Part shown: one piece after another, positions 3,632 to 30,586 of the stretch
Numbering within the stretch: the stretch's first letter is position 1
Layout: every line of letters starts with the position of its first letter
Source of the DNA: Halohasta salina
GTDB lineage: Archaea; Halobacteriota; Halobacteria; Halobacteriales; Haloferacaceae
Length of the DNA stretch: 64,000 bases
Direction: 5' to 3'
NCBI RefSeq assembly: GCF_024178165.1
Contig: NZ_JAMZIE010000003.1
Location: 186,001-250,000 of the forward strand
Notes under the pieces: generated by a model
The model's input: the letters and a program-made list of their open reading frames with translations, nothing else
Database searches by the model: none
Told to the model about the DNA's origin: nothing
Translations under genes and position numbers: made by a program

Positions 3632-4360
3632 CTAGTTCGTCGGCGCGCTCGCCGTGTGGGCGTCTTTGACCCCGTCGACCGTCTCGCTGACGGCATCACA
3701 GCCCTCCGAGTGCAGGAGGTCGCCGACGACGACCACGTCGGCGTGTTGGCCCATCTCGTAGGCGTCGTCGTAGTCGTGGACCCCGCCGCCGTAGAACAGC
3801 GTCGCGTCGTCGAGGGCCTCGCCCGCGGCGCTGACGACCTCGGGATCGCCGAAGGTGCCGGAGTATTCGAGATAGATGATCTCTTGGCCGAACATCTTCT
3901 CGGCCACACGCGCATAGGAGGCCACGTCGTCGGCCGACTGGTCGCAGTCGGCCTCCGTGTACTCTGCCACGGAAGCCTCGGGATTCATGACGATGTAGGC
4001 CTCGGTGGTCGTCCGATCCCAGTCGAGGCCGTTTTCGATCCGGACCCACTCCTTGTGCGCGCCGACGATCCAGAACGGATCGCTCGAATTGAAGACGGTC
4101 GGAATCAAGTAGCCCTCGAGGGCCGGCGAGTCGATGACGACCGAAGGGTTCGACGGCTCCTGATACAGCGGCACGTCGTACTCGGCGCAGGCGTCGACGA
4201 CCCGCTGCATCTTGTCCTCGGTCATCCCGAGTGTGCCGCCGATCTCGATGGCGTCGGTGCCGGTCTCACAGACGTCGGCGAAGGTCTCGCCGTCGACCAG
4301 CGGTTTGTCGGGGTCGATCTTGAGGACGTGGTCCCACTCCGTCCACGGGCGTGTACTCAT
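3632..4360 (-). CDS. Geranylgeranylglyceryl phosphate synthase (GGGPS)
   Basis: Prenyltransferase that joins sn-glycerol-1-phosphate to geranylgeranyl diphosphate, the first ether bond of archaeal membrane lipids. The 242-residue protein has the PcrB/GGGPS TIM-barrel pattern: [11 protein letters not shown] near the start, [14 protein letters not shown], the prenyl-pocket strand [13 protein letters not shown] around residue 170, and the phosphate-binding [12 protein letters not shown] near 200. The haloarchaeal group I form carries this strand wording. The ATG at 4360 begins [11 protein letters not shown]; upstream in-frame sequence has the composition of intergenic DNA. A TATA box lies 25-33 bases before it. 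The divergent neighbour is a Bat-type regulator, but no functional link is shown. Confidence 0.93.
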
Positions 4361-4384
4361 CTTGCGTGGAGTTGTCTCGTGTGA

Positions 4385-4393
4385 TAATAAAAA
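4385..4393 (-). promoter_or_regulatory. TATA box of GGGP synthase
   Basis: TTTTTATTA on the minus strand, 25-33 bases before the start codon at 4360, fits a leaderless haloarchaeal transcript. Confidence 0.65.
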
Positions 4394-4480
4394 GGGTGCG
4401 GTGGCCGATCCGTCGGCCCCATCGCGTGCCGCCGCCGACCAAAGGGATAACCGGCTGCCACCCGTAGCTCCATAGATCAG

Positions 4481-6604
4481 ATGGCACACCGACTGGTCGC
4501 CTACGCCGACCCCGACCCCGAGGCCGCCGCCGCGGTCGTCGACGGGCTCGGTGAGATTGCCCCCGAACTGACGGTCAGCTACGTCGGCCCGCCGCGAGAA
4601 GCGGTAGCACGCTTCGCCACCGACCCGGTCGACTGCGTCGTCAGCGCCTGGATCGAGGCCGACGCCGACCGCGAGACCTTCGTCGAGGCGGTCGACTCAC
4701 ACGCTCCGACCTGTCCGGTGGTATGGTTCACCGACCGGCCCGCGAGCGTCGTCGAGCGCCTCGCGGACCACAGCGAGTACGTCTACAAACAGGGTTGCAA
4801 GGGCGAGTACGGCGTGTTGGCCCGTCGGCTCCGGTCGCTGCTCGGCGACGGAAGCGGTGCCACGGGCGAGCCGGAGGACGCCCACGCGCTGTCGGTGCTG
4901 GCGTCGGGGGCCGCCGCCCTGTCGGCGGCCGACTCCGAGCGAGCGATCGCCGAGATCGGTATCGAGACGGCCGTCGACGGGCTCGGCTTCGAGGACGCTA
5001 TCGTCTTCGACTACGCCGAGTCGACGAACGTCTTTCGGCCGTTGGCCCACACCGCCGGAGCCGAAACCAACTTCCCCGGTCTCCCGGCGATCGATGCCGT
5101 CCGGACCAGTATCGCCGGTCGGGCCTTCTTCGAGGCCGAACCGATCTCGACTCCCGACATGAGCGATCACCCGGCGGTGACCGATCCCGAGACGCCCTAT
5201 CGCCGGGCGCTGTTCCTCCCGTTGGGCGAACACGGCGTGCTCTTCGTGGGCGATACCACCGCGGGCACCACGACGGTCGAGACGCTGACAGCCGGCAGAC
5301 TGCTCGCCGCGCTGCTCACCGCGGCACTCGATCGCCACAGCGCCGACCGGCTGGCGGCGACCCGCGAGGACGCACTCGCCGCCCGGACGGCGGAGTTGGA
5401 GGCGCGAATCCGGACCGACGAGCTGGCTCACGAACTGGTCGACGAACTGGTGTCGGCGACGAGCCGCGCCGAGATCGACAGCGCAGTCTGTCGAACGCTC
5501 GCGGCGGTCGACCGGTGCCGGTTCGTCTGGATCGGTGCCGCCGAGGGGCGGGACGGTGCCGTCACCCCGCGGACCGCCGCCGGCGAGGCCGGCGACTATC
5601 TCGACTGGCTGGCCGACGCCGCCGACGCCACGACCCCGACCGCCGCCGAACCTGCCGCTCGTGCCCTCGCGACAGGGTCGACGGTCTGGATCCCCCGGAT
5701 CGCCGATGACTGGCAGACTGCGCCGTGGCGGAAGGAGGCGCTGTCCCGCGGCTACCAGTCGGTGCTGAGCGTGCCGCTGGCACACGCCGGGATCAGCTAC
5801 GGCGTCCTGTCGATCTACGCCGACACGCAGGCGGCCCTTCCGGCCCACACCCGGCGGGTACTCGCCGCGTTCGGTCGTGTTATCGGCTACGTCATCGAGA
5901 GCACCGAGACCAAACGCGGACTGCTCGCCGACCACCGAACCGAGATCGAACTCGACATCGACACCGCCGATCCGATCCAGACGCTGGCCGCCGCACTCGA
6001 TGAACCGCTGACCGTCGAGGGGTTCGTCCCCCAGAGTGAGGGCCGGTCGCTACTGTACGTCGCCGCCAGCGATCTCCCGACGGCAGCCATCGAGGCGGCC
6101 GTCGACGACTCCCCGGCGGTCGACACGTTCCGAGTTGTCACCCGGCAGGTCGGGACCACGCTGTTCGAACTCACGGTCTCCGAGCCGGTGGTGGCCGCGA
6201 CGGTCGTCGACGCCGGCGGGATTCCCTCCCGGATCGCCACCGACGGCCGCTGCCAACAGGTCGTCGTGACGATCCCGCAGTCGGCCGACGTGCGAGCGGT
6301 GGTCGACCGCATCACTGCCACCTACCCGTCGTCGACGGTCGTCTCCCGACACGACCACGACGGGGAAATACGGACGCGGGAAACGTTCCAGATGGAACTG
6401 TTCGACCGGCTTACCCGTCGCCAACGGGAGACGCTCCGTGCAGCCTACTTCGCTCGCTACTTCGAGTCGCCCCGCGGCAGCACGGGCACCGACGTCGCTC
6501 GGTCACTCGAGATCACCCAGCCGACGTTCACTTACCACCTCCGGGCCGCACTCAAGACGGTGTTGACGATGGTCTTCGAGGAGCCACCGTCTCTAGATAG
6601 CTAG
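4481..6604 (+). CDS. Bat-type multi-sensor HTH transcriptional regulator
   Basis: A 707-residue member of the haloarchaeal bacterio-opsin-activator (Bat-like) family. Residues 1-125 resemble a receiver domain ([19 protein letters not shown], later DCVVSAW and VYKQG), though the usual phosphoacceptor context is degenerate. Two GAF-like sensor regions follow (about 145-285 and 310-465), then the GAF/HTH-associated BAT domain (about 480-615). The C-terminal HTH_10 domain is at 640-700 ([16 protein letters not shown], then a [18 protein letters not shown] helix). The signal sensed and the regulon are unknown. It is not next to a bop gene, so a role in purple-membrane control should not be assumed. 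Confidence 0.9.
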
Positions 6605-7002
6605 ACCTGATTACCGATTGACTCAATACTGATAGCAGTGATGGTTTTAGTTATACGCTGCCTTCGGTCGCTTGTGGCAGCAGAACGTCGGTGGCTGTCC
6701 CGCGCCATCCGCCGGCAGGGGCGCAACCGGACCCGAGCCACGGGCGCCGTTCGGGGGAACGACGACCGGCCACGCCGTCGTTGGGGGACGACGCGTGGAG
6801 CGGAGTTGCGACGACACCACCGTACTGCTCGACCACGCCGATCGTCGCCCGCGGTCGACCGACCCATACTGGGGGGTATGGGTCGGCCGGCCGTCCTGCG
6901 ACTGCCGTACGCGGCACTCCACGCGCGGGCGGATCCGGGCAACGACCCGCCCTGCGCTGTCGGTAGCCCAACAGCTATAGGTTTCTCGATGGTTGTCGAC
7001 GT
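6605..7002. other. 398-base gene-poor region with one hairpin
   Basis: No open frame here has haloarchaeal codon use or a recognisable domain; several overlapping frames on both strands are Arg/Pro-rich by-products of GC content. It holds an 11-bp inverted repeat at 6859-6886 and a TATA-like CTATAGG near 6974-6980 that serves the DUF2237 gene. Confidence 0.6.
6859..6886. repeat. 11-bp perfect inverted repeat, hairpin-forming
   Basis: CCGACCCATAC and its exact reverse complement GTATGGGTCGG flank a TGGGGG loop. It is 117 bases upstream of the DUF2237 ATG and 255 bases past the Bat-like gene. It could be an operator, a small-RNA hairpin or a relic. Confidence 0.6.
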
Positions 7003-7374
7003 ATGTCTACCGACGAGCGAAACGTTCTCGGCGAGCCGCTCGATCCCTGTAGCACCGCGCCCGAAACCGGGTTTCTGCGGGATGGCCACTGTCGCCACCT
7101 CGACCGCGACCCGGGTCGACACGAGATCTGTGCGGTGATGACACAGGAGTTTCTCGAATACAGCCGCGAGCAGGGCAACGACCTGATCACCCCGCGGCCG
7201 GAGTACGACTTTCCGGGGCTCCATCCGGGCGACCACTGGTGTGTCTGTCTGCCACGGTGGCTCGAAGCCCGTGCCGCCGACTGCGCGCCGCCGGTCGTCC
7301 TCGACGCAACCAGCGAGGGGGTTCTCGACGAGGTGTCGGTCGACGAGCTACGCGCCCACGAATACGAGCCGTAA
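7003..7374 (+). CDS. DUF2237 family protein
   Basis: A 123-residue protein matching DUF2237 along its whole length: NVLGEPLDPCS, TGFLRDGHCRH, CAVMTQEFLEYS, GNDLITPRPEYDFPGLHPGD, then WCVCLPRWLEA and PPVVLDATSEG. The conserved Cys and His residues (Cys16, Cys30, His32, Cys43, Cys80, Cys82) suggest metal binding, but no enzymatic activity is established. A TATA-like element lies 23-29 bases before the ATG. The gene is monocistronic; its stop is followed by two copies of a short GTAG-N7-CTAC palindrome and then the 3' end of topA. Confidence 0.9.
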   Translation: MSTDERNVLGEPLDPCSTAPETGFLRDGHCRHLDRDPGRHEICAVMTQEFLEYSREQGNDLITPRPEYDFPGLHPGDHWCVCLPRWLEARAADCAPPVVLDATSEGVLDEVSVDELRAHEYEP

Positions 7375-7381
7375 CCGACGC

Positions 7382-7396
7382 GTAGCCAGCGACTAC
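7382..7396. repeat. GTAG-N7-CTAC palindromic element, copy 1
   Basis: GTAGCCAGCGACTAC, eight bases after the DUF2237 stop. It belongs to a short family found after several stop codons in this window. Confidence 0.55.
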
Positions 7397-7402
7397 CCGT
7401 GA

Positions 7403-7417
7403 GTAGCCACCACCTAC
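7403..7417. repeat. GTAG-N7-CTAC palindromic element, copy 2
   Basis: GTAGCCACCACCTAC, 21 bases after copy 1 and just before the convergent topA stop. Confidence 0.5.
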
Positions 7418-7421
7418 CCGG

Positions 7422-9944
7422 TCAGTCGGCGTCGGCCTGCCAGTTCCGCACCGTGTCGGGGCCGACACCGTCTACTTCCTCGGCCAGCGCGTCGGGATCG
7501 GCCTCTTTGAGCGCTGTGACATCGTCGATGCCCGCTGTTTGTAGCTTGTCGGCGGTCTTCTCGCCGATTCCGGAGACGGTTTCGAGTTCCGAGCCGTCGC
7601 GTTCGGCCTGAAACTCGCGGTAGTTGCAGATCGGACAGCCCAGCTCCCACGGCTCGTCGCCGCCGTTGTCGATGACGAGTTCCGGCAGCCCGTGTTCCTC
7701 GCAGTGCTCGTCGGTGACCTCGATCTCGCCGCGGCGCGGCAGCGGCAGCGAGTACTCGCAGTCCGGATACCGCGTACAGCCGACCAGCCGCGAGCCGTTG
7801 CGGAGCCGCTTGATCGCTAGGTCGCCGCCCTCGTCGGCACCGCAATCGGGGCAGTCTCCGATGACGAGATCCTCCTCCTCGTCGGCCTCGTCGGCCTTAC
7901 ACTGCGGACAGCCGTGGGTGAACGTCTTGCGCCCGGCGAGCATTTTGATCTCGCGGAGTTCGTGGTCCTCGCAGGTCTCGTCGAGAATGAGGGGTTTGCC
8001 AGTAGAGGGCAGCGGCAGCGTGTAAGTACAGTCGGGGTAGCCGTTGCAGCCCACGAAGTACGAGCCGTGTCGACTCTTCCGCACCAGCAGGTCGTCGCCA
8101 CACTCCGGACAGGGGCCGAGCGTCTTGTCGGCTTTGAGGGATTTTTGGATGTGGTCGCCGACGTCCTCGCGGGAGTCGGTGAGTTCGTCGAAGACGCGTT
8201 CGAGCATCTCCTTGGACTCGTCGGTCACCTCGCTGTAGGCCGTCTCGCCGGCCGCGATCGCCTGCATATCGGCCTCCAGTTGGGCGGTCATCTCCTCGCT
8301 GACGATCTGGTCGGCGTACTCCTCGGCGGCCTCGACGACGGCGCGGGCGAGCATTGTCGGCCGCGGCGGGTCGCTCTCGATGTAGCCGCGGTCGTACAGC
8401 TTCTCGATGGTGTGGTGGCGGGTCGACTTCGTGCCGATCCCCATCTTCTCCATCGTCTCGATCAGCCGCGACTGACCGTAGCGCCGCGGCGGCTGGGTCT
8501 GTTTGTCCTCGATCCGTGTCTCGGTGATCGACAGCGTTTCGCCCGCCTCGACGTCCGGCACGTGGGTTTCTTGCTGATTGAAATAGGGATAGACGTCGTG
8601 GTAGCCTGCCGCTACCAGCCGTTTGCCGTTGGCTTTTAGCCGGAGGTCGTCGATGTCGGCCTCGGCCGTGTCGACTTCGGAGACGACCTTGAGGTGCTCC
8701 CACGTGGCGTCGTCGGCCACGGTGGCGAAGAAGCGGCGGACGACCAACTCATAAATTTCCCACTCGTCGTCGGAGAGTTCGCCGGGGTCGGGCCGCTCGC
8801 CGGTCGGGTGGATCGGGGGGTGGTCGGTGGTCTCCTCGTCGCCGGCGGTCGGCTCGATCTCCTCTGCCTCCAGGAGCAATCGAGCATCATCACCGAACGT
8901 CCGGTCATCGAGGAAGGCTTCGAGCAGCTCCTCGGGGTCGAGATCCTCCGGATACACCGTGTTGTCGGTCCGGGGGTAGGTGATGTAGCCCGCGGTGTAG
9001 AGATCCTCGGCCATGCTCATTGCCCGCTGGGCCGAGTAGTTCAGCGAACTCGCCGCCCGGATGAACTGGGTGGTGTTGAACGGCGCTGGTGGGCTGTCGG
9101 TTCGGGTCCGGCGGTTGACCGAGTCGACGCTGGCGGCGTCGGTCCCGGAGAGTACCTCGTAGACGGCCTCGGCGCGGTCGCCGTCCCAGACACGCTCGGC
9201 CTCGTTGCCATCCTCGTCGCGATAGAAGTACTGGGCCTCGAAGCCGCCCTCGTCGGCCTTTTCGAGGTCGGCGAACAGCTCCCAGTAGTCCTCGGGATCG
9301 AAGGCGTCGATCTCGCGTTCGCGGTCGACGATCAGCTTCAGGGTCGGTCCCTGCACCCGGCCCACCGAAATGAAATCGTCACCGAGTTGGCGGGCCGACA
9401 GCGAGAGGAAGCGGGTGAGGGCCGCGCCCCAGATCAGGTCGATCACCTGTCGGGCCTCGCCGGCGGCGGCGAGATCGAAGTCGAGTTCGTCGGGGTTCTC
9501 GAAGGCCTCTTTGACCTCACGGTCGGTGATCGACGAGAAGCGCACCCGGTCGATGTTTACGTCCTCGTTGACCTCCCGGACCAACTCGTAGGCCTCCTTG
9601 CCGATGAGTTCGCCCTCCCGATCGTAGTCGGTGGCGATGGTGACGTTGGAGGCCCGCCGGGCCAGCGTGCGGACCGCCGCGACGATGTTTTCCTGGGTGG
9701 GCTGTTTCTCAATGGGGGCGTCGATCAACTCGACGGGCTCGACGTCCCGCCAATCGTTGTACTCGCTGGGGAAGTCGACGCCGACGACGTGGCCCGAGAG
9801 GCCGATACAGCGTTTGCCACCCCACTTGTAGACGTTGACGCCGCGTTCCCGCTCGACATCGGCGGTCCCGCCGCTGAGGATCTCGGCGATCCGCCGGGCG
9901 GCGTTGTCCTTTTCGGTAATGATCAGTGCAGGCCCACGACTCAT
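7422..9944 (-). CDS. topA: DNA topoisomerase I (type IA)
   Basis: Relaxes negative supercoils by transient single-strand breakage. The 840-residue protein has an N-terminal TOPRIM domain (residues 5-140) with the metal-binding DYDREGE at 106-112, and the type IA core. The active-site Tyr323 lies in GYITYPRTDN. Several C-terminal topoisomerase zinc ribbons follow (about 655-790; CPECG...YPDC, CPQC, CPDCG...YPDC, CPIC). A helix-hairpin-helix ends the protein (residues 790-840, ETVSGIGEKTADKL), an extra DNA-binding module. The ATG at 9944 begins MSRGPALIITEKDNAARR, the usual start; an in-frame upstream extension lacks conservation. It converges on the DUF2237 gene. Confidence 0.96.
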   Translation of the reverse strand: MSRGPALIITEKDNAARRIAEILSGGTADVERERGVNVYKWGGKRCIGLSGHVVGVDFPSEYNDWRDVEPVELIDAPIEKQPTQENIVAAVRTLARRASNVTIATDYDREGELIGKEAYELVREVNEDVNIDRVRFSSITDREVKEAFENPDELDFDLAAAGEARQVIDLIWGAALTRFLSLSARQLGDDFISVGRVQGPTLKLIVDREREIDAFDPEDYWELFADLEKADEGGFEAQYFYRDEDGNEAERVWDGDRAEAVYEVLSGTDAASVDSVNRRTRTDSPPAPFNTTQFIRAASSLNYSAQRAMSMAEDLYTAGYITYPRTDNTVYPEDLDPEELLEAFLDDRTFGDDARLLLEAEEIEPTAGDEETTDHPPIHPTGERPDPGELSDDEWEIYELVVRRFFATVADDATWEHLKVVSEVDTAEADIDDLRLKANGKRLVAAGYHDVYPYFNQQETHVPDVEAGETLSITETRIEDKQTQPPRRYGQSRLIETMEKMGIGTKSTRHHTIEKLYDRGYIESDPPRPTMLARAVVEAAEEYADQIVSEEMTAQLEADMQAIAAGETAYSEVTDESKEMLERVFDELTDSREDVGDHIQKSLKADKTLGPCPECGDDLLVRKSRHGSYFVGCNGYPDCTYTLPLPSTGKPLILDETCEDHELREIKMLAGRKTFTHGCPQCKADEADEEEDLVIGDCPDCGADEGGDLAIKRLRNGSRLVGCTRYPDCEYSLPLPRRGEIEVTDEHCEEHGLPELVIDNGGDEPWELGCPICNYREFQAERDGSELETVSGIGEKTADKLQTAGIDDVTALKEADPDALAEEVDGVGPDTVRNWQADAD

Positions 9945-29583: not shown

Positions 29584-29686
29584 ACCCCATCTGGGGACGG
29601 TTTCGGCCTAAGAATTCCGCTTCGCCCGTCCGATCACCCCCTGAGAGCCGAACCAGCTATACTACTGGATTACAAAGGGGGGAGTG

Positions 29687-29785
29687 ATGGACCGTCGGGG
29701 GATCCTCTCTACTGTCGGCCTCGTCATGCTGATCGTCATCGTCGTGGCGATCAGCTTTACCGTCAGCCTCGCGATTTTCCTGTAG
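29687..29785 (+). CDS. 32-residue single-span membrane peptide
   Basis: MDRRGILSTVGLVMLIVIVV begins a 32-residue peptide with a basic N-terminus and one continuous hydrophobic helix ending in AIFL. Support: a TATA-like CTATACTA 23-30 bases before the ATG, and a purine-rich AAAGGGGGGAGTG just before it. Haloarchaea are known to encode many such small membrane proteins. No homolog is recognised. It is divergent from the ABC transporter pair. Confidence 0.55.
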   Translation: MDRRGILSTVGLVMLIVIVVAISFTVSLAIFL

Positions 29786-29952
29786 CTGCGGGTTCCCTCC
29801 GGGGCGGATCTCACAGTGCCGTCCATCGACCGACTCGTCGACCTGTGTTCCCACGTCCCTCACCAGTGGGGCGGCTCCGGGTTGTGTCGGCACCGTCAAA
29901 CCCACTGCGTCCCAGCCGAAAAGACTGTACGACCGCCCTGAAAGGTACGACT

Positions 29953-29965
29953 GTGGTACCGTGAC
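29953..29965. repeat. 13-bp direct repeat, left copy
   Basis: GTGGTACCGTGAC, identical to 30411-30423. The two copies bound a 458-base step holding a start-less frame and a zinc-finger gene. Confidence 0.6.
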
Positions 29966-30162
29966 CGATCGCGGGAATCGTCATCCCGCCGGACATCCGC
30001 CGCTCCGTCGACAGCCACGTCGCTGCCGAACATCTACGGGAAGCCGGCGGCTTCCTCCACTGTGCCCGCCGCGGGGACCGCCTCTATGCGACCCATCACG
30101 TCCCGCTGTCGAACGACTCGCCGACCCCCGAGCGCCCGTCGACCGGCAGCGACGCCCTCGTT
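29965..30162 (+). pseudogene. Start-less coding-like fragment
   Basis: About 66 codons reading PIAGIVIPPDIRRSVDSHVA..., with the codon bias of real genes here (mostly G/C in third positions). A TGA directly precedes the first codon and no alternative start is seen. The open frame continues antisense through the zinc-finger gene but loses its bias there. It is best read as the surviving middle of a disrupted gene; the family is not recognised. Confidence 0.35.
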
Positions 30163-30402
30163 TTATCGGTGGGTCTCTCCGTAACAATCACCGCCGACGG
30201 CGTATGGCTTCCCGAGCTTCCCACATCGAGGACACGTGACCGTTGTCGGGCTAACAACCCCTCCAGGATCCACGAAACCACGGTCTCTCAAGCAGTGATC
30301 GTGGATGTACGCGTTACAGTTGGAACAGTTCTGACCGTTACTACCTGTGACGTTGTCACCACACAACTCACATAGACTGCTTTCGGAGCTTACCATTCCC
30401 AT
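30163..30402 (-). CDS. Small C4-H-C3 (PHD/RING-CH-like) zinc-finger protein
   Basis: A 79-residue protein whose whole core is one zinc-binding domain. Ligands are Cys11, Cys14, Cys26, Cys29, His34, Cys37, Cys57 and Cys60, i.e. C-x2-C-x11-C-x2-C-x4-H-x2-C-x19-C-x2-C. This spacing is that of the cross-brace PHD or RING-CH finger of eukaryotes; the Trp usual before the seventh PHD ligand is absent. A final Cys73 lies in the tail. GC content and codon use are lower than in neighbours, which suggests transfer or relaxed selection. An ATG two codons in (30396) is an alternative start. The function is unknown. Confidence 0.75.
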   Translation of the reverse strand: MGMVSSESSLCELCGDNVTGSNGQNCSNCNAYIHDHCLRDRGFVDPGGVVSPTTVTCPRCGKLGKPYAVGGDCYGETHR

Positions 30403-30410
30403 TGTGCCCC

Positions 30411-30423
30411 GTGGTACCGTGAC
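30411..30423. repeat. 13-bp direct repeat, right copy
   Basis: GTGGTACCGTGAC, nine bases upstream of the zinc-finger start; identical to 29953-29965. Contains the palindrome CGGTACCG. Confidence 0.6.
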
Positions 30424-30586
30424 ACGCAGCTTTGTAACGCGGACCCTAGTAAATATTAATTATATTTGGGTTTCAGACACGGAATCTATTGAGTTCAACC
30501 GATAGTAAAGGTCCGCCTAACCCTCCGTTTCAGGCCTACAAACCTACCAGAACGGATGCGAGTTATGAACAGTCGACGTCGCCTGA

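Follow-up and report, generated by a model that had tools for sequence, protein, structure and literature searches.

A 79-residue C4HC3 zinc mini-protein encoded by Halohasta salina was shown to belong to an uncharacterised family that is patchily distributed in haloarchaea. With moderate confidence, the protein is interpreted here as a single binuclear treble-clef domain that would act as a zinc-stabilised, protein-binding adaptor, probably with a regulator as its partner, and that is encoded by an accessory gene. The window referred to throughout is the whole stretch of DNA that was analysed, comprising 64,000 nucleotides of contig NZ_JAMZIE010000003.1.

The gene and its locus

The coordinates of the open reading frame, the length of its product, and the positions and spacings of the eight ligands (C11, C14, C26, C29, H34, C37, C57 and C60; C-x2-C-x11-C-x2-C-x4-H-x2-C-x19-C-x2-C) are exactly those given in a preliminary description of this DNA, which left unstated that the frame is on the minus strand (Table 1). 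The translated protein is MGMVSSESSLCELCGDNVTGSNGQNCSNCNAYIHDHCLRDRGFVDPGGVVSPTTVTCPRCGKLGKPYAVGGDCYGETHR. The ATG at 30402 was taken as the start codon, rather than that at 30396, because homologues begin with MGLF or MGIL. An antisense frame (30169-30375, plus strand) was rejected, since it lacks the cysteine pattern.

Table 1. Features associated with the mini-protein gene (positions are those of the window).
Feature	Position	Strand	Remarks
Gene of the 79-residue C4HC3 zinc mini-protein	30163..30402	-	Start ATG at 30402, MGMVSS...
Codons of ligands 1-6 (C11, C14, C26, C29, H34, C37; treble-clef core)	30292..30372	-	Invariant, 36 homologues
Codons of C57, P58, R59, C60 (last knuckle, ligands 7-8)	30223..30234	-	C57, P58 and C60 invariant
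A+T-rich stretch AAATATAATTAATATTTA (minus-strand letters)	30449..30468	-	Likely TATA/promoter region of an independent transcript
798-bp segment holding the gene	29787..30584		No DNA match in corresponding regions of two congeners
13-bp direct repeat GTGGTACCGTGAC, copy 1	29953..29965	+	Inside the lineage-specific segment
13-bp direct repeat GTGGTACCGTGAC, copy 2	30411..30423	+	Just upstream of the start codon

The C4HC3 pattern is beyond chance, and the frame is a real gene. Across 513,681 haloarchaeal bases, a relaxed form of the pattern gave 37 matches, every one a family member; this DNA had been chosen for carrying the family, and the result means that nothing besides the family matches there. 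The same relaxed pattern occurred in none of 20 codon shuffles and once among 200,000 shuffles that kept the protein's composition. Additionally, the family is under purifying selection, with a dN/dS of 0.18 between the Halohasta gene and its closest homologue (L056, 60% identical) and of 0.02-0.05 in three closer homologue pairs. Codon use had been described as less GC-rich than that of the neighbouring genes, and this is borne out by a GC3 of 0.56 versus 0.83-0.91 in the five nearby genes measured. Judged from its sequence, the A+T-rich stretch before the start codon is likely to be the TATA or promoter region of the gene's own transcript. A+T-rich, TATA-like boxes were observed ∼25-35 nt before the ATG in many homologues, which is consistent with the members being independent small genes.

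The gene sits between genes encoding a family-2 glycosyltransferase and an ABC transporter, and lies in a 0.8-kb segment, specific to the lineage, at which synteny breaks. Two congeners retain both the sequence to the left of this segment (to 29786) and that to its right (from 30585), but far apart on the chromosome, and the segment itself is present as a single copy in its own genome. The perfect 13-bp repeat that flanks the gene may be a remnant of an insertion or may serve in regulation. A profile search of three congeners revealed the protein in none of them. In the tree, the protein, from taxonomic family f1, groups with L056 from family f3 with support of 99/82, and there are further cross-family groupings, one at 100/99. 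In line with its low GC3 and the presence of the family in 18 of 169 genomes, the gene is accessory, and was probably acquired horizontally, since its absence from congeners, the unique segment and the cross-family groupings all fit horizontal exchange. An old duplication with repeated loss is the alternative account to horizontal exchange. Within the MGLF clade, to which the protein belongs, no consistent gene neighbour was found.

A viral origin was considered and rejected, as no relatives were detected in IMG/VR, phage or plasmid collections by searches that reach mainly close relatives. PADLOC defence models gave no match, nor did Rfam at the locus. Separately, a 33-residue, single-helix membrane micro-protein ORF (MMDRRGILSTVGLVMLIVIVVAISFTVSLAIFL; 29684-29785, plus strand) lies where the block shared with congeners ends. 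Loci L056 and L077, which are from two different families, both have a gene for a TFB-type transcription factor and one for an unrecognised conserved protein of ∼310 residues near the mini-protein gene, and these shared neighbours possibly reflect a common mobile element. Proteins resembling pentapeptide-repeat proteins adjoin the mini-protein gene at L063, L064, L073 and L076; three of these are related (1136-1156 residues), and that at L073 has a C-terminal ion-channel domain.

Distribution, conservation and fold of the family

Relatives were identified in 14 of 171 genomes of the same taxonomic family when whole genomes were searched with the single protein, in 18 of 169 when searched with a profile, and in 55 of 392 genomes of the class by profile (E ≤ 0.001), some of the last being weak. 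The family's presence in some 10-14% of searched haloarchaeal genomes qualifies the earlier statement that an arrangement of this type is rare in archaea. Carriers include Haloquadratum walsbyi J07HQW1, Halosegnis rubeus and Halopenitus persicus. Matches beyond Halobacteria were weak or partial and were left out of the family count; loci L021, L024 and L025 (other zinc-ribbon-like proteins) and L023 (a partial match with a different arrangement) were also set aside. No model naming the family was among the NCBIfam matches found, and members are probably annotated as hypothetical. Across a 36-member alignment of haloarchaeal homologues, M1, C11, C14, C26, C29, H34, C37, C57, P58 and C60 are invariant; conservation of His34 and all of the cysteines, proposed in the preliminary description as a test of its reading, thus extends to 36 of 36. 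Two further arrangements were noted, namely a pair of different C4HC3 mini-proteins encoded adjacently on the same strand at L067 (6423-6845), and C4HC3-like open frames of 64-67 residues with a very short C6-C7 loop at L103 and L104, which derive from a haloarchaeon and a relative outside the order.

When the family profile was compared with the PDB, PHD fingers ranked first (KMT2D, WSTF, UHRF1, DPF3), followed by C1 and SLX1 domains, with E-values down to 2.7e-6, and there were no zinc ribbons among the 60 best matches. AlphaFold2 models were obtained for the Halohasta protein (pLDDT 69, core about 80; a small strand-helix at 32-41) and for the Haloquadratum walsbyi member L057 (pLDDT 73; a small strand-plus-helix core). 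The nearest solved structures to both models in Foldseek searches are mainly RING and PHD fingers, at E-values of only 0.04-0.9, none being below 0.03 and hence none reaching 0.001. The Halohasta model aligned to Nse1 with a TM score of 0.48 (rmsd 2.4 Å) and the L057 model with 0.54 (2.5 Å); the latter gave 0.53-0.55 against the FANCL RING, and the two models together span 0.47-0.55. Against the NMR structure of HVO_2753, which has tandem pockets, the L057 model scored 0.34. AlphaFold2 predicts zinc pockets in haloarchaeal micro-proteins whether or not these bind zinc (PMC11241148). Additionally, an apparently decaying copy at L099 (a homologue of L078; about 1485-1728) carries C29 to Y and C60 to F substitutions, i.e. 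has lost C4 and C8. This joint loss, which is one case, favours the cross-brace, because the two ligands share one zinc there and do not in tandem ribbons.

An interleaved two-zinc, or cross-brace, domain is therefore likely on profile and model evidence, since cross-brace fingers are what the family profile retrieves from the PDB, and the two models match C4HC3 RING and PHD fingers. The cross-brace interpretation offered in the preliminary description gains from the invariance of the ligands, the PDB profile and the model matches, and is tempered by the weak Foldseek E-values and a pLDDT of about 70. The tandem zinc-ribbon structure that it had set against its own interpretation is not what the models favour in fold searches.

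As to which finger family is involved, exact PHD and RING-CH spacing had been claimed. The PHD half of that claim holds, in that the protein has the C4-H-C3 order and the C3-x2-C4-x4-H5-x2-C6 spacing of PHD fingers and Nse1; the RING-CH half does not, since a single residue separates C3 from C4 in typical C4HC3 (RING-CH) fingers (PMC4726241) and two are present here. The profile searches advocated earlier gave a divided outcome: the Halohasta protein scored 14.1 bits with PF00628, below the gathering cut-off of 24, whereas L057 (25.2 bits) and the sister-clade member L079 (25.6 bits) scored above it, and PF12906 (RINGv) was not among the 25 best Pfam matches listed for the protein. PHD fingers carry an aromatic residue, tryptophan, two positions before C7; the equivalent residue is Val55 in the Halohasta protein, and tryptophan or phenylalanine in other members (e.g. 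L068, L069, L071, L072, L076, L077, L083 and L090). The protein differs also in standing alone in an archaeon with no histone-tail context, and is not a certified PHD. With Prok-RING_1 (PF14446), a prokaryotic cross-brace finger family, the sister clade scored above the cut-off (32.1-32.2 versus 29.1); the Halohasta protein was undetected, no ubiquitin-system genes were recognised nearby, and the matches span the first six ligands only.

Indeed, the sole cross-brace cut-off that the Halohasta protein passed, marginally, was that of C1_1 (PF00130; 26.7 versus 26.5 bits, profile positions 10-44 of 53). The first six ligands and their spacing are those of a C1 domain. However, C1 domains also use an N-terminal histidine and a C6-x7-C cysteine as ligands, whereas this protein has no histidine before C11, carries Asp45 at C37+8 and ends in CxxC. 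Recurrent sub-threshold matches were returned by zf-RING-like (PF08746) and SLX1_C (PF21202), the latter at 22.4 bits versus a cut-off of 27.2. The atypical C4HC3 RINGs of Nse1, FANCL and SLX1 share the ligands and a short helix after the histidine, and Nse1 and FANCL are the best full-length fold matches to the family models (TM 0.48-0.55); the modelled helix and these matches point to a place near this group. These RINGs differ in being domains of larger eukaryotic proteins, and E3 activity is not indicated for the Halohasta protein. In SLX1, C3 and C4 are separated by four residues; its C-terminal C4HC3 finger, at first described as a PHD finger, has a helical domain of SLX4 as its binding partner (PMC4726241). 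Among archaeal proteins, the Caldiarchaeum small RING finger protein (srfp) is likewise a small, stand-alone cross-brace protein, but is of the RING-H2 type (C3H2C3) and is encoded in an operon with ubiquitin, E1 and E2 (PMC5654768). HVO_2753 and other haloarchaeal C(P)XCG micro-proteins are likewise zinc micro-proteins of fewer than 80 residues; these differ in having separate, all-cysteine pockets, one of which is metal-free in HVO_2753 (PMC11241148). The profile of its zinc pocket (PF07754) was not among the 25 best matches listed for the Halohasta protein, and matched L069 at 21.9 versus a cut-off of 33.2 bits. The protein is therefore assigned to none of these finger families, and the resemblance is at the level of the fold.

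A sister clade upstream of cdrL, cdrS and ftsZ2

A sister clade of C4HC3 proteins was found in 17 genomes from two genera of family f3 (loci L079, L080, L081, L082, L084-L089, at about 4000-9000, and L125-L141). The gene is co-directional with cdrL, ending 61-87 nt before it, and cdrS follows, in all 17 of the genomes in which it was found. ftsZ2 is next in nine of the ten longer loci, to which this count is confined; at the tenth its motif was not found within the stretch covered. Pfam searches on representatives confirmed the CdrL, RHH and FtsZ genes (CdrL_M plus RHH, RHH, and Tubulin/FtsZ, respectively). At L068 (3846-6889), a relative from another genus with an MGL- start is encoded divergently from cdrL-cdrS-ftsZ2. 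In the available portion of the CdrSL study, CdrL and CdrS are reported to regulate ftsZ2 and division, and that portion contains no description of a zinc mini-protein upstream of cdrL (PMC7439475).

The sister-clade gene may be an additional component of the CdrSL cell-division locus. Since this neighbourhood belongs to the sister clade, which is ∼17-29% identical to the Halohasta protein in the alignment, the hint of cell division reaches the latter by homology alone. A broader and distinctly speculative scheme would unite these proteins as a haloarchaeal PHD/RING-like adaptor family, in which the branch upstream of cdrL is a third cell-division regulator acting on CdrL, CdrS or FtsZ2, and the gene in the window is a mobile relative with the same regulator, or a homologous one, as its target.

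Proposed function and alternative readings

The proposed protein would be a binuclear treble-clef (cross-brace) finger comprising a single domain and no catalytic domain. In the presumed zinc pairing, C11, C14, H34 and C37 would hold Zn1, and C26, C29, C57 and C60 would hold Zn2; a counterpoint to two zincs is that HVO_2753, with four knuckles, binds only one (PMC11241148). As an adaptor, the protein may bind one partner protein through the face of the short helix and the variable C6-C7 loop, by analogy with the C4HC3 finger of SLX1 on the helical domain of SLX4. This partner would probably be a regulator, as hinted by the sister clade, whose gene immediately precedes cdrL-cdrS in 17 of 17 genomes. 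In Halohasta salina, the family would be represented by an accessory gene that has its own promoter and was probably acquired by horizontal transfer.

The ligands could instead form tandem zinc ribbons or knuckles, as in a C(P)XCG micro-protein of the HVO_2753 type, with non-interleaved pockets comprising C11/C14/C26/C29 and H34/C37/C57/C60. Dozens of such micro-proteins exist in haloarchaea, the four-motif HVO_2753 has separate pockets of which one binds zinc (PMC11241148), and some zinc-ribbon profiles give weak matches to individual knuckles in family members. However, an invariant H-x2-C stands in place of CxxC at the third knuckle, cross-brace fingers rank ahead of ribbons in both the profile and fold searches, the HVO_2753 structure is a poor match to the L057 model, the single family match to PF07754 is far under its cut-off, and the decayed copy at L099 lost C4 and C8 jointly; the tandem arrangement is considered unlikely. 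If the cross-brace is accepted, the protein might conceivably be a PHD-like reader of protein N-termini or histone-like proteins, given its ligand order and C3-C6 spacing and the fact that histone-reading PHD fingers head the PDB profile matches. This is judged more improbable still, as the protein falls well below the PHD cut-off, Val55 replaces the PHD tryptophan where other members are aromatic, haloarchaeal histones are not known to carry eukaryote-type tails, and there are no chromatin genes in the context. The chromatin role about which the preliminary description had speculated is unsupported.

Least probable of the alternatives, and regarded as very doubtful, is an E3-like role of the RING type in the ubiquitin-like (SAMP) system of archaea, in which the protein would bring a conjugating enzyme to substrates. 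The models match the RINGs of FANCL and Nse1, both of which are tied to E3 activity, Prok-RING_1 profiles match sister-clade members, and a small RING protein is an E3 in Caldiarchaeum (PMC5654768). Conversely, E2 and E3 genes are reported not to be conserved in the haloarchaeal SAMP system (PMC4895103), and in 26 neighbourhoods, for which Pfam searches covered few of the genes, no ubiquitin-system gene was recognised. A search for E2 (PF00179) gave no match in 17 family-carrying genomes, with control genomes equally silent. A ubiquitin-ligase role is unsupported. More room is left for a nucleic-acid-binding zinc mini-protein, i.e. a small transcription factor of the kind proposed for Brz in Halobacterium, though this too is rather unlikely. 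The sister clade adjoins the transcription-factor genes cdrL and cdrS, and small haloarchaeal zinc-finger proteins can affect transcription, as reported for Brz (PMC2253796). Against this, the closest profile and fold matches of the family are protein-binding domains. Cross-brace fingers in general mostly bind proteins.

RING and PHD fingers tend to be regarded as eukaryotic signatures of ubiquitin- and chromatin-based processes. An archaeal family of stand-alone proteins with the same interleaved ligands would, if the protein-binding adaptor reading is true, show such a finger in the role of a binding module only, in hosts for whose ubiquitin-like system conserved E2 and E3 genes are reported to be missing. 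The position of the sister clade beside cdrL-cdrS-ftsZ2 makes a function in cell division testable in tractable haloarchaea.
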